A stretch of 64,000 nt of DNA from Pedobacter sp. N36a (GTDB lineage: Bacteria > Bacteroidota > Bacteroidia > Sphingobacteriales > Sphingobacteriaceae): the NCBI RefSeq assembly GCF_014472395.1, contig NZ_JACSZW010000006.1, positions 62,001-126,000 on the forward strand, read 5' to 3'. Position numbers and translations under genes: made by a program. The notes under the pieces were generated by a model. The model had not been told where the DNA came from and ran no database searches. It saw only the letters and a program-made list of their open reading frames with translations. Numbering within the stretch: the stretch's first letter is position 1; every line of letters begins with the position of its first letter. Of the stretch, positions 6,182 to 18,382 are shown piece after piece.

Positions 6182-7051
6182 TTACTTCTGCAGATAAGAC
6201 TTTTGGTAATTTAACGGACTCTTTCCGGTAATGATTTTAAAATGTTTGTGAAAGCTGGCAAAGTTGTGAAATCCGCTTTCATAGCAGATCTGCTTCACAT
6301 TCATGCTGTCCTCAATCAGCAATTTGCAAGCATGACCCACCCTGATTTCAGAGATAAACTGGGTGTAAGTTTTCCTGGTTCTTGATTTAAAATACCGGCA
6401 AAACGAATTTGGACTGATGTTGGCCACAGCGGCCATTTCCTCCATCTGGATTTTTCTTTTGAAATTCGCCAGTGAATAATTGTAAATCGCATTGATACGG
6501 TCATTTTCGATCTCCTCGAAATCATGTCGGAAACCGATAGAAGACAGTAATTCATGCTGCGTACAGCTTTCAATGGCCAGCAATGCTTCCATTAAAAGAA
6601 TGATCCGCTTAGATCCTTCAGAAAGTAAAATGGATTCAATGATTTCTCCGATCACTTTTTTCACTTTGTCAGAAATTTGAATTCCTCGCTGTGCTTTTTC
6701 CAGAATTAGTTTTAAGGCCTTGTTTTCCGGTAGGTTTAAAAAATGGTTTCCCCAGAAATTTTCACAGAAATGAACGACAACAACATCGGCATTTTCCTGT
6801 TCATCCGCTAGGAAATAGCTGTCGTCAAATCTCCAGTAATGGGGGAGGTGTGCACCGATCAATACCACGTCTCCAGATCGGAAACGCTTGATACTGTCGC
6901 CAATAAATTGGGTGCCATTTCCTTTCTTGAAATAAATCAATTCCACCTCTGCATGGTAATGCCAGCGGTTGTTGATGTAAGGGACTTTGTCTCTCCTTGC
7001 ACTAAATGAATTCACAAGGTTGTTTGAAACTTTGAGTAGTTGTGGCTTCAT
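6182..7051 (-). CDS. AraC-family transcriptional regulator with N-terminal cupin
   Basis: 289 residues. The N-terminal half looks like a cupin sensor (H-Y-H-A-E-V-E-L-I-Y-F, R-S-G-D-V-V-L-I-G-A-H-L-P-H-Y-W). The C-terminal hundred residues form the paired AraC HTH: first helix-turn-helix around M-E-E-M-A-A-V-A-N-I-S-P-N-S-F-C-R-Y-F-K and second around V-K-Q-I-C-Y-E-S-G-F-H-N-F-A-S-F, ending G-K-S-P-L-N-Y. Such regulators bind a sugar and activate transport or catabolic genes. It sits between the fucosidase (same strand, downstream) and a divergent sulfatase, so both are plausible targets; the 174-bp divergent gap would hold its operators. Confidence 0.88.
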   Translation of the reverse strand: MKPQLLKVSNNLVNSFSARRDKVPYINNRWHYHAEVELIYFKKGNGTQFIGDSIKRFRSGDVVLIGAHLPHYWRFDDSYFLADEQENADVVVVHFCENFWGNHFLNLPENKALKLILEKAQRGIQISDKVKKVIGEIIESILLSEGSKRIILLMEALLAIESCTQHELLSSIGFRHDFEEIENDRINAIYNYSLANFKRKIQMEEMAAVANISPNSFCRYFKSRTRKTYTQFISEIRVGHACKLLIEDSMNVKQICYESGFHNFASFHKHFKIITGKSPLNYQKSYLQK

Positions 7052-15651: not shown

Positions 15652-15687
15652 AAAAAAAGGCCTTGGAATAGTCCAAGGCCTTTTTTT
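15652..15687 (-). terminator. Intrinsic terminator of lipoprotein gene 1
   Basis: GGCCTTGGA (15659-15667), loop ATAG, TCCAAGGCC (15672-15680), flanked by seven A on the left and seven T on the right; lies 17 nt after the stop in the minus direction. Confidence 0.88.
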
Positions 15688-15703: not shown

Positions 15704-15916
15704 CTAGTGAGCAGCTGGTTTAGCAGTTTCAGTAGTAGTTTTAACAACTGTATCTTTTACTGTAGTATCCACAACTGAAGTATCAACAGTAGTCACAACA
15801 GCACCTGAGTCAGTTAATGTAGTGTCAGTTGATTCACCTTTTTTCTCTGATGAACAAGCTGCTACTGATAAAGTGATTGCTAATGCTGCGAAACCTAATT
15901 TAAATGCGTTTTTCAT
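15704..15916 (-). CDS. Small Thr/Val/Asp-rich lipoprotein, copy 1
   Basis: 70 residues from the ATG at 15914-15916. A longer in-frame reading to 16015 has no signal peptide and crosses the promoter-like element, so it is rejected. The signal peptide ends in the lipobox V-A-A-C (Cys21). The mature part is charged near the anchor (S-S-E-K-K-G-E-S) then low-complexity Thr/Val/Asp, with D-T-T at 31 and 50 and D-T-V at 55. Residues 1-46 are identical to copy 2 (16231-16446). No known domain; I do not recognise a function. Its promoter-like element is shared with copy 2 and with the adjacent sigma gene, suggesting it is a stress or envelope target of that sigma factor. Confidence 0.85.
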   Translation of the reverse strand: MKNAFKLGFAALAITLSVAACSSEKKGESTDTTLTDSGAVVTTVDTSVVDTTVKDTVVKTTTETAKPAAH

Positions 15917-15952: not shown

Positions 15953-15983
15953 GATTAATACCCTATATCCAAAAAGGTAACCC
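15953..15983 (-). promoter_or_regulatory. Shared bipartite element, lipoprotein 1 copy
   Basis: On the minus strand: GGGTTACC (15983-15976), 14 nt, GTATTAATC (15961-15953). The downstream end is 36 nt from the ATG, a distance fitting a promoter with a leader of about 30 nt. Identical architecture to the other two copies. Confidence 0.75.
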
Positions 15984-16178
15984 AGGTAATCCAATTTATT
16001 TTTATTTTTTTTCAAATATATTTTTCAAGTCCTGAAATCAGGGAGAAAGTAGGGCGGTATTTGCACCCGAACACTTTCTGGTCTTTTTCATCCTGAAATT
16101 ATTTGACTTTTTTTGGAAAAAAAATGCTGAAAAACTTTTACTTACTCAGTTTAACGGCGTAAGAAATATAAATGCAAC

Positions 16179-16212
16179 AAAAAAGGTGCTGGATTGCTCC
16201 AGCACCTTTTTT
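16179..16212 (-). terminator. Intrinsic terminator of lipoprotein gene 2
   Basis: GGTGCTGGA (16185-16193), loop TTGC, TCCAGCACC (16198-16206), six A on the left and six T on the right. Same geometry as copy 1 but a different stem sequence. Confidence 0.88.
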
Positions 16213-16230
16213 GTGATTAGCCTTTTGAGC

Positions 16231-16446
16231 TTATTTTTTAGTTACAGTGTCAGTAGCAACAGTTGTAGTTTTTACAGTAGTATCTTTTACTGTAGTATCA
16301 ACAACGTTAGTGTCAACTGTAGTAACAACAGCACCTGAATCAGTTAATGTAGTATCAGTTGATTCACCTTTTTTTTCTGATGAACAAGCTGCTACTGATA
16401 AAGTGATTGCTAAAGCTGCAAAGCCTAATTTAAATGCGTTTTTCAT
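16231..16446 (-). CDS. Small Thr/Val/Asp-rich lipoprotein, copy 2
   Basis: 71 residues, lipobox cysteine Cys21, identical to copy 1 through residue 46 and diverging at the C-terminus (ends in T-V-T-K-K rather than K-P-A-A-H). It carries D-T-T at 31, 50 and 55 and D-T-V at 66. Tandem arrangement, matching promoters and high identity indicate a fairly recent local duplication. As with copy 1 the function is unknown. It is the copy nearest the divergent sigma gene; the 207-bp gap holds both genes' GGGTTACC elements facing each other. Confidence 0.85.
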   Translation of the reverse strand: MKNAFKLGFAALAITLSVAACSSEKKGESTDTTLTDSGAVVTTVDTNVVDTTVKDTTVKTTTVATDTVTKK

Positions 16447-16481
16447 TATAATTCTATTTTAAATAATTAATTAATTTTGCT

Positions 16482-16512
16482 GATTAATACCTGAAAGATT
16501 AAAAGGTAACCC
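16482..16512 (-). promoter_or_regulatory. Shared bipartite element, lipoprotein 2 copy
   Basis: Minus strand GGGTTACC (16512-16505), 14 nt, GTATTAATC (16490-16482), ending 35 nt before the ATG. Spacer sequence differs from copy 1 while both boxes are identical. Confidence 0.75.
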
Positions 16513-16624
16513 GAGCAATTCAAAAAAAAATAAAATATTTTTATTTGACGAATTTGGAGCAGTTGACGTTTAGTAAGGTAATAAGGGAAAGATCAGAAAA
16601 AAGTATTTTTTTTTGGTTAACATT

Positions 16625-16655
16625 GGGTTACCATTCACGTATAAATGTATTAATT
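16625..16655 (+). promoter_or_regulatory. Shared bipartite element, sigma-gene copy
   Basis: Plus strand GGGTTACC (16625-16632), 14 nt, GTATTAATT (16647-16655). The right box overlaps the TTG start codon of the sigma gene (16654-16656), unlike the two lipoprotein copies where it lies 35-36 nt upstream of the ATG. Confidence 0.7.
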
Positions 16656-17223
16656 GGTGAGTAATAAGTTAAGCAGTTCAGTTCCAACAGATAGAGAGGT
16701 AGTTTTAGGGATACTAAATGACTCGGAAGATACGCTAAATAAACTGTACACCGGATATTTTCCGATGGTATTGCAGTTTATACTGAATAATAACGGTGAT
16801 GAGGATGATGCAAAAGACGTGTATCAGGAAGGAATCATCGTATTATACAATAAAATAAAGGGCGGCAATTTTGAATTGAGCAGTAAACTAAAGACCTATA
16901 TATACTCAGTTTGCAGAAGAATATGGTTGAAGAAACTTTCCCAGGAAAGCCGGAAAACCAATAACGTCTCAGATTTTGAGGATATCATGGCAGTAGAGGT
17001 TGATTTGGAGCAGCATGAAGAAAAAGATCAGCAGTTTGATAAAATGAACGATGCACTTGTTCATCTTGGTGAACCTTGCAAGACCATTATTCAGGATTTT
17101 TACATCAACGGTCTGTCTATGCAGGACATTTGTGAGAAATTTGGCTATACCAATACGGATAATGCCAAAACTCAAAAATATAAATGCTTACAACGGCTGA
17201 AGAAATTGTTTTTTCAAGTTTAA
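16654..17223 (+). CDS. ECF-like RNA polymerase sigma factor
   Basis: 189 residues if started at TTG 16654; GTG at 16657 is the next choice and no ATG occurs before Met37. Region 2 (about 25-95) shows D-E-D-D-A-K-D-V-Y-Q-E-G and the region 2.4-like Y-I-Y-S-V-C-R-R-I-W-L; region 4 (about 130-189) has the HTH L-S-M-Q-D-I-C-E-K-F-G-Y. An acidic linker separates them. It lies 7 nt before the anti-sigma/protease fusion and is clearly co-transcribed. The shared element upstream suggests autoregulation and control of the two lipoprotein genes. Start codon is doubtful because the shared element overlaps it. Confidence 0.85.
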   Translation: MVSNKLSSSVPTDREVVLGILNDSEDTLNKLYTGYFPMVLQFILNNNGDEDDAKDVYQEGIIVLYNKIKGGNFELSSKLKTYIYSVCRRIWLKKLSQESRKTNNVSDFEDIMAVEVDLEQHEEKDQQFDKMNDALVHLGEPCKTIIQDFYINGLSMQDICEKFGYTNTDNAKTQKYKCLQRLKKLFFQV

Positions 17224-17230
17224 AGGTGAT

Positions 17231-18319
17231 ATGAGAAACGAGATTGAGTTAGAGGGTATAATTGAAGATTATTTGAATGGTAAGCTTTCTGAGACAGAAA
17301 GAGTAGCTTTTGAGCAGCTTCGCAAGAATGATCCAACGGTGGATCATAAGGTAGTTGCGCATAAAGTTTTTCTGGATGCTTTAGGAGAGTATGCCAATAA
17401 GATGGATTTAAAAGCGAAAATGGATCGCGCCCATGCAGAAATTGACGTAGAGCGCTTAACAGAAGCGTTAAGACCTCATCCTTCCCGTATCATCAACTTA
17501 TGGAGAAAAAATAAAGCAGCGATTGCCGTTGCCGCCTCTTTCATCCTGTTAACCATTGTGACCGTTTATTCTATCCAGCAAAACACCAAACAAATTGGCA
17601 GCGTTGAACTGGTCAGCAGGGAATTGACGAAAATTAAAAATTCTCAAAGCAGCCTGATCAGAATCATCAATTCTAAAAATACCCCTAAAAACGTGAAACC
17701 TGCCAATTTCGGCGGAACAGGATTTGCATTAACCGCCAACGGTTACTTATTGACCAATCTGCATGTAGTAGATGGCGCGGACTCTGTATATGTTCAGGAT
17801 AGCAAAGGTGATTCTTATAAAGCTAAAGTAGTCAGAACTGATTCTCAGTATGATTTGGCCATTCTAAAAATTACAGATCGTTCATTCAGCCCGCTTTCTA
17901 ACCTTCCTTACCGATTGAAACAAAGCGGAATAGGCATGGGTGATGTGGTTTATACCTTAGGTTTTCCTAAAGATGATGCCGTATTTGGCGAAGGTTATGT
18001 GAGCTCAAAAACAGGTTATAATGGAGATACCACACAATATCAGGTGGCCATTCCTGTAAACCCTGGAAATAGCGGTGGTCCTTTATTAGACCATCAGGGA
18101 AACATCATCGGTGTCATCTCTGCGAAAGAGAAACAAGTAGATGGAGCAACCTTTGCAATTAAATCAAAATATATTCAAGAGGCTTTAAACTCTATTCCTA
18201 ATGATTCTTTAGGTAAAAAAGTGGCTTTCAATAAAAGAAATTCTTTGCAAGGCCTGAGCAGAAATAAACAGGTCCAGAAAATACAGGATTATGTGTTCAT
18301 GATCAAAGTATATAAATAA
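17231..18319 (+). CDS. Membrane fusion: anti-sigma-like segment + trypsin-like serine protease
   Basis: 362 residues. Residues 1-92 are cytoplasmic and carry the pattern I-E-D-Y-L-N-G-K-L-S-E-T-E followed by F-E-Q-L-R-K-N-D-P, typical of N-terminal segments of Bacteroidetes anti-sigma or related membrane regulators. A single helix at about 96-115 leads to a periplasmic S1C (HtrA/DegS-like) protease: L-T-N-L-H-V-V (His178), Y-D-L-A-I-L (Asp208), N-P-G-N-S-G-G-P (Ser281). No PDZ domain follows; a 35-residue basic tail ends the protein. Position directly after the sigma gene suggests it holds or releases that factor in response to periplasmic signals. That role is inference; the protease fold is secure. 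Confidence 0.85.
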   Translation: MRNEIELEGIIEDYLNGKLSETERVAFEQLRKNDPTVDHKVVAHKVFLDALGEYANKMDLKAKMDRAHAEIDVERLTEALRPHPSRIINLWRKNKAAIAVAASFILLTIVTVYSIQQNTKQIGSVELVSRELTKIKNSQSSLIRIINSKNTPKNVKPANFGGTGFALTANGYLLTNLHVVDGADSVYVQDSKGDSYKAKVVRTDSQYDLAILKITDRSFSPLSNLPYRLKQSGIGMGDVVYTLGFPKDDAVFGEGYVSSKTGYNGDTTQYQVAIPVNPGNSGGPLLDHQGNIIGVISAKEKQVDGATFAIKSKYIQEALNSIPNDSLGKKVAFNKRNSLQGLSRNKQVQKIQDYVFMIKVYK

Positions 18320-18340: not shown

Positions 18341-18382
18341 AAGACCCTATAGCTGATCTCGCTGTAGGGTCTTCTTTTTTTT
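18341..18382 (+). terminator. Intrinsic terminator of the sigma-protease operon
   Basis: AAGACCCTATA (18341-18351) pairs with TGTAGGGTCTT (18363-18373), followed after one C by a run of T to 18382. Confidence 0.88.

Follow-up and report, generated by a model that had tools for sequence, protein, structure and literature searches.

Organization of the locus

The window, that is, the whole stretch of 64,000 nucleotides from the soil bacterium Pedobacter sp. N36a that was analysed, contains a plus-strand gene with a GTG start (16657-17223) whose 188-aa product is, from its family matches, an ECF sigma factor (sigma-70 family group 4). It scores 84.2 bits against TIGR02937 over residues 26-183 (cut-off 42.9) and 31.9 against Sigma70_r2 (cut-off 24), region 2 being the only one named by Pfam, and a profile search of the PDB matched it to SigW and sigma-H chains. 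Placement in the FecI-like Bacteroides expansion family (TIGR02985) was rejected, with 51.3 bits against a cut-off of 126.4. A second plus-strand gene (17231-18319) follows and encodes a 362-aa protein combining a predicted anti-sigma domain, a transmembrane helix and a trypsin/DegS-like protease. Past its end, a scan identified a terminator-like hairpin (18341-18373, plus strand; 13 pairs, then a T run), a position consistent with a two-gene operon; the scan returned four such sites in the region, against 1.9 in shuffled sequences. The gene downstream of the operon encodes a DUF72 protein.

On the minus strand, lipoprotein gene A (15704-15916) encodes a small Thr/Val-rich protein of 70 aa, and lipoprotein gene B (16231-16446) a 71-aa near-copy of it (96.8% over 62 aa). 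Terminator-like hairpins with flanking A and T runs were recognized by eye 3' of both genes on the same strand (15652-15687 for gene A, 16180-16211 for gene B); neither was listed by the terminator scan of the region. Both products resemble the PG1828-family lipoproteins (NCBIfam NF050142) in size and in a near full-length alignment (residues 1-56 on 1-57 of 59), but they were not filed as members because their scores of 40-44 bits (40.4 for gene A, 43.6 for gene B) fall below the cut-off of 50. Linkage to PG1828 as a wider marker was dropped as not diagnostic, since the model matches in 159 of 247 genomes and exceeds its cut-off in 9. We take SigH/PG1828 of P. gingivalis to be a possible parallel.

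These genes are connected by a bipartite element, GGGTTACC-N14-GTATTAAT, which occurs in three exact copies in the window, all inside 700 bp and all directed into a gene, namely the ECF sigma gene and the two duplicated small lipoprotein genes. Copy 1 (15954-15983, minus strand; GGGTTACC at 15983-15976, N14, GTATTAAT at 15961-15954) lies upstream of lipoprotein gene A, with the ATG 37 nt downstream, and copy 2 (16483-16512, minus strand) upstream of lipoprotein gene B, with the ATG 36 nt downstream. Copy 3 (16625-16654, plus strand), through which the sigma gene may regulate itself, leaves 2 nt between its end and the GTG. The only further match in the window at up to three mismatches is at 6858-6887. 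The original prediction had described three copies with identical boxes, a spacer of 14 in each and distinct spacer sequences, and exact matching recovered all of this; its 31-nt ranges were one nucleotide too long because each copy measures 30 nt, and the distance from box to ATG at the lipoprotein genes, put at 35-36 nt, is 36 and 37 nt.

Across the whole genome of this strain (5,252,005 bp in 83 contigs), the three copies in the window are the only exact ones, against an expectation of 0.0039 from base composition or 0.0031 from an order-2 Markov model. At up to two mismatches there were 8 sites, versus 3 for a reversed-pattern control; one site with a single mismatch (L004) is probably due to chance.

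Conservation of the element at orthologous sigma genes

Among 99 genomes, that of the strain itself included, 74 have a match to the sigma factor at E ≤ 1e-10. Close orthologues (77-94% identity) were present in 58 of 59 other same-genus genomes, the exception being G014, an assembly in 620 contigs with a distant match alone (25%), from which the sigma gene may be absent. The element, with no more than one mismatch, marks the sigma start in 30 of 30 same-genus loci (L009-L038, own locus included). We then considered the best 80 of at least 571 sigma relatives in named genomes, which come from Pedobacter, Mucilaginibacter, Daejeonella, Pararcticibacter and others, many of them uncultured, and of which the closest among the matches listed is from Pedobacter polysacchareus (97%). 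All 80 of these loci carry the element at the sigma gene, 25 as exact N14 copies, 53 as N14 copies with one mismatch and 2 at N15. From a class-wide sample of 247 genomes, 53 of which have the sigma at E ≤ 1e-30, 29 further loci were examined (L081-L109; sigma identity 82-44%, two of them same-genus), and all 29 have the element at N14 or N15 with up to two mismatches. An opposite-strand element lies upstream at the same tolerance in 27 of them and is absent at L089, where the contig extends only about 370 nt on that side, and at L101.

More distant loci (20 of 26 such places, sigma identity 32-44%) gave a mixed picture: L297 has an exact element at N15, L295 and L296 have one with a single mismatch and several others have two or three mismatches, while six (L292, L294, L305, L306, L307 and L310) have none at up to three mismatches within 150 nt, so that the motif fades in distant sigma loci. 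Copy number also varies. The sigma gene of L079 (G113:C51) has a tandem array of three elements in front of it, with identical spacers in the two that are exact, and at L033-L036 and L038 at least three successive copies occupy the strand opposite the sigma gene, whose own element there has GGGTTACT in place of GGGTTACC.

The geometry of the element is narrowly constrained. In the 508,384 bases of the best 80 named loci, box pairs with up to one mismatch number 243 at N14 and 37 at N15, compared with 0-2 for each remaining spacer length between 8 and 21; a reversed-box control gave none at any spacer, and none of 4000 shuffled sigma upstream regions contained the element. Rigid spacing of this kind is typical of a -35/-10 pair. 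The 243 N14 sites comprise 78 at the sigma gene, 151 before short ORFs that show a lipobox-like pattern, and 14 of neither kind, 9 of these 14 lying 77-283 nt upstream of the sigma gene on its own strand.

The element and the sigma gene also occur together across genomes. Exact N14 matches were found in 13 of the 247 class genomes (21 sites, against 3 for a control pattern), all 13 being among the 53 sigma-positive genomes and none among the 194 sigma-negative ones (Fisher p 5.7e-10). The other 40 sigma-positive genomes have no exact copy, and the loci examined there mostly have one or two mismatches. Within the genus, a site with at most one mismatch was found in 99 of 99 genomes (control pattern, 0-3 per strand), and overall the element is linked to the sigma gene across nine genome families. 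The original prediction read the locus as a small autoregulated ECF regulon and proposed a look at orthologous sigma genes; the element is there in the same-genus (30/30), named (80/80 among the best 80 of at least 571) and class-wide (29/29) loci, and the abundance at random genome positions that would have spoken against this reading is not seen, the strain having three exact copies. Both observations favour such a regulon, as far as sequence can indicate.

A probable near-leaderless start of the sigma gene

With copy 3 ending 2 nt before the GTG, the sigma gene would be almost leaderless. The codon at the projected sigma start is GTG in 78 of the best 80 named loci (of at least 571), including 40 of 40 at 78% identity or more, and this GTG follows GTATTAA by 2-3 nt in 74 of the 80. 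An in-frame TAA, part of the -10 box itself, lies two codons before the GTG in 39 of the 40 closer loci, so an earlier start could only be a TTG immediately preceding the GTG (11/40); in the frame of the strain itself, this single upstream start codon is the TTG at 16654. Several other families have instead an ATG about 13-19 nt past the box.

If the GTA of the second box is taken as the -10 core, its distance to the first box presumably resembles that of known ECF promoters, and the predicted transcription start would fall on or beside the sigma GTG. The sigma mRNA would therefore probably be leaderless or nearly so, since the GTG follows the -10 box by 2-3 nt and the TAA blocks earlier starts, although another promoter further upstream might serve the gene as well. 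Codons 6-11 of the sigma gene (window 16675-16692) and its orthologues have a third-position variation of 0.077, compared with 0.367 for codons 12-40 and 0.370 for codons 1-5; this low variation some 20-40 nt past the putative start looks as if a second constraint acted on the DNA or mRNA. At the other end of the protein, the C-terminal region of the sigma factor is highly conserved over 14 diverse homologues, which would be fitting for a near-invariant -35 box.

Candidate targets of the sigma factor

In the best 80 named loci, 151 copies stand before ORFs of 45-130 aa that carry a lipobox-like pattern, and the ATG is 25-48 nt away in 150 of the 151. Elsewhere, single exact sites lie in front of further lipoprotein genes of this kind (L173, L178) and of a few genes of other kinds (L174, L175, L177).

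Outside the window, the element was found at two unrelated genes. DUF4349 (PF14257, E ≤ 1e-10) was detected at 30 places in 27 of 59 genomes, and the element lies upstream of this lipoprotein gene in 23 of the 30 loci (shuffles, 0/600), comprising 22 of 22 same-genus loci, with that of the strain itself (G000:C33:288297) among them, and 1 of 8 others, one of which (L134) has no upstream sequence present. The other encodes a 452-aa multi-helix membrane protein (G000:C66:159056-160411, element at G000:C66:160428) for which a Pfam scan gave no family over cut-off. It occurs at 12 places in 11 of 59 genomes, with a patchy distribution in the genus, and the element is found at all 7 near-full-length orthologues (own included) and at none of 5 partial relatives (shuffles, 1/240). 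In G014, the genome with no close sigma orthologue, the element is present at the DUF4349 gene (two mismatches, N15; L141) and at the 452-aa gene (one mismatch; L166).

The operon partner joins a putative anti-sigma domain to a protease

Codons 1-80 of the second gene (17231-17470, plus strand, as for the following segments) encode a predicted cytoplasmic, anti-sigma-like helical domain, codons 96-115 (17516-17575) a single transmembrane segment by hydropathy, and codons 159-320 (17705-18190) a predicted periplasmic trypsin-like protease (Trypsin_2, 4.3e-25) with the triad H178, D208 and S281. In the AlphaFold model (mean pLDDT 76.8, pTM 0.54), four helices at the N-terminus are followed by a long membrane-crossing helix (residues 84-117) and, at 159-320, by a trypsin fold. 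Fold searches, for which Foldseek was also used, matched HtrA1 (Z 19.9) and DegS without its PDZ domain (Z 19.1, rmsd 2.3 over 164 residues). The protein is present in 79 of the best 80 named loci (of at least 571), the triad is invariant in all 80 sequences formed by these 79 and the window protein, and the next gene encodes a protease domain at 29 of 29 class-wide loci. By its fold and its complete triad, the domain is a serine protease of DegS type. The DegS equivalog itself (TIGR02038) was rejected at 69.6 bits, below its cut-off of 422.95, and a Pfam scan of the protein gave no PDZ domain, hence none to sense outer-membrane protein ends; matches to NCBIfam models include MarP- and HtrA-like proteases. 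Past the protease domain, the C-terminus carries a conserved short motif, DYVFM[VI]KVY.

The N-terminal domain is far less readily named. NCBIfam anti-sigma models matched it very weakly, far under cut-off; a PDB sequence search returned no anti-sigma factor, its best match (E 0.027) being unrelated; and whole-protein fold searches had no anti-sigma chain among the matches listed, which were filled by the protease. The commonest weak Pfam match of the domain is zf-HC2, in 19 of 60 members (best E 0.0019), with none in the window protein's own domain. Modelled alone (pLDDT 88.7), the domain had no significant Foldseek match, the best being at E 4.3 and the anti-sigma factor RslA second at 4.7. 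Structural alignment against nine chains (VIA-align) placed it best on RslA (Z 5.8, 63 residues, rmsd 5.4), values that are weak for a helical bundle.

Comparison with more distant relatives is more informative. At the 20 more distant sigma loci, the partner has a protease in four, and L306 and L309 have no partner ORF over 120 aa. The remaining 14 of 18 partner ORFs are without a protease, a clear hydrophobic segment is present in 13 of these 14, and their N-terminal profile aligns with that of protease-bearing partners at 97.9% hhalign probability (E 3.2e-13). Partners of distant sigma relatives, in most of those examined, keep the N-terminal domain and end differently. A tree built from 53 sigma rows accounts for the protease label with a single change (support 78/92; 80% of bootstrap trees), which we read as moderate given several long branches. 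A common N-terminal domain with differing ends is how anti-sigma factors with exchangeable sensors would be expected to look, and we consider the second protein likely to be an anti-sigma factor.

Alternative explanations and proposed mechanism

Several other readings of the element were weighed. That the boxes are the trace of a recent duplication of a lipoprotein gene with its promoter, joined by chance at the sigma gene, might be suggested by the near-identity of the two lipoprotein genes; yet the sigma copy has an unrelated spacer, faces the opposite direction and persists in all of the best 80 named loci (of at least 571), and the unrelated DUF4349 and 452-aa genes bear the same boxes. 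Duplication and chance were both rejected on the counts in the genome and across the class, on the expected number and on the spacer, and we regard the duplication scenario as having next to no likelihood. Sites that precede several unrelated genes would equally be expected of a two-half operator, bound by a separate regulator (activator or repressor) that controls the sigma and lipoprotein genes. Against such an operator stand two boxes unlike each other in sequence, a spacing fixed at 14-15 in one orientation, a narrow distance to the start codon, and the finding that what accompanies the element from one genome family to the next is the sigma operon, all of which make it very improbable. 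Cross-talk is possible in ECF networks, and the element could also be a promoter read by another ECF sigma factor, the adjacent one being merely one more target: a first look at the genome yielded 41 sigma-like candidates, and the target genes of G014 carry the element without a close orthologue of this sigma. However, positive autoregulation is usual for ECF factors, exact elements in the class sample are confined to genomes with this sigma (13/53 vs 0/194) and the element tracks this sigma gene through nine genome families, so that we find a different sigma factor very unlikely. Taken together, the sequence evidence makes it highly probable that the element is the promoter of the neighbouring ECF sigma factor.

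A separate question concerns the second gene, whose product could be an HtrA-type quality-control protease under sigma control, with an N-terminal domain that serves for generic membrane anchoring and is no anti-sigma factor. The protease is indeed the sole strongly recognised part of the protein, and MarP- and HtrA-like proteases are among its NCBIfam matches. The distant loci argue the other way, since 14 of 18 partners there are without a protease and yet have the N-terminal domain in common, with a hydrophobic segment in 13 of the 14. We thus consider a pure quality-control role unlikely, and prefer the anti-sigma reading of the second protein.

We propose that GGGTTAC(C) is the -35 and GTATTAA the -10 of a promoter with a spacing of 14, sometimes 15, read by the adjacent sigma factor, which would transcribe its own operon in positive autoregulation. 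It would also drive a small envelope regulon consisting of one to several small lipoproteins, the DUF4349 lipoprotein and the multi-helix membrane protein. The N-terminal helical domain of the second protein would hold the sigma factor at the inner membrane and, through the single transmembrane helix, be joined to the periplasmic DegS-like protease. An envelope signal would activate the protease to cut a juxtamembrane linker, its own or that of a neighbouring molecule, after which intramembrane and cytosolic proteases may release the sigma factor. We infer transcription from the element, its reading by this sigma factor, the binding of the sigma factor by the N-terminal domain and the cleavage route from sequence. 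Self-cleavage of the second protein is a reasonable hypothesis, to which we give somewhat less than even weight. The full combination is put forward tentatively: an inhibitory domain with different sensors in relatives, a promoter GGGTTACC-N14/15-GTATTAA that is nearly fixed and, in Pedobacter, Mucilaginibacter and their kin, a leaderless sigma mRNA starting at GTG that would weld the promoter to the reading frame.

Relation to known systems and significance

The closest likeness is to the Sigma-E/RseA/DegS system of Escherichia coli, with which the locus shares an ECF sigma factor, a predicted membrane anti-sigma factor with a cytoplasmic N-terminal domain, a periplasmic protease of DegS fold and envelope lipoproteins among the (here predicted) targets. 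In contrast to E. coli RseA and DegS, the anti-sigma factor and the site-1 protease would here be one polypeptide, without PDZ domain, and the operon is followed by the gene of a DUF72 protein, not by RseB. The promoter sequence also differs from that of E. coli Sigma-E. For DegS, the comparison draws on sections of PMC8103513.

Within the Bacteroidota, EcfO-Reo of Bacteroides and Phocaeicola and Das-Dma (ECF21) of Bacteroides thetaiotaomicron likewise pair an ECF sigma factor with a neighbouring membrane anti-sigma factor (predicted in our case), and EcfO governs NigD lipoprotein genes and has been tied to envelope stress, according to portions of PMC13114119, PMC9308784 and PMC13088901. Their anti-sigma factors, as described in these portions, span to the outer membrane, whereas the partner here is a 362-aa one-helix protease, and this architecture rules out membership in the EcfO/Das (ECF21) group; no promoter consensus for these systems appears in the portions cited. 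The SM6 motif of F. psychrophilum resembles the element in being an ECF promoter motif from the Bacteroidota with a sigma/anti-sigma operon among its members; as given in part of PMC9723704, it has a CGT box at -10 and belongs to type IX secretion genes, and it was ruled out as a match because this CGT box is not the GGGTTACC/GTATTAA pair. In the relevant part of PMC7406223, only 6% of Bacteroidetes ECFs come with a class I anti-sigma domain, a figure that would fit a domain missed by current models. Neither the motif nor an anti-sigma/protease fusion appears in the sections drawn upon from PMC12596196, PMC13088901, PMC13114119, PMC9723704, PMC9308784, PMC7406223, PMC8103513, PMC7593790 and PMC8999054, and a search of the open-licence PMC literature gave nothing relevant among the matches listed for the motif, such a regulon or an anti-sigma/trypsin fusion.

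The analysis goes beyond the original prediction in the putative anti-sigma/protease partner, the candidate targets elsewhere in the genome and the predicted near-absence of a leader on the sigma mRNA. From sequence alone, it points to a promoter, a regulon and a likely regulator for one Bacteroidota ECF factor across at least nine genome families. To our knowledge, the promoter code has been worked out for only a few of the numerous ECF factors in this phylum. In Bacteroidota, so strict a promoter could find use as an orthogonal part. Should the second protein act as inhibitor and protease at once, the locus would represent a minimal, one-protein version of the RseA/DegS switch.
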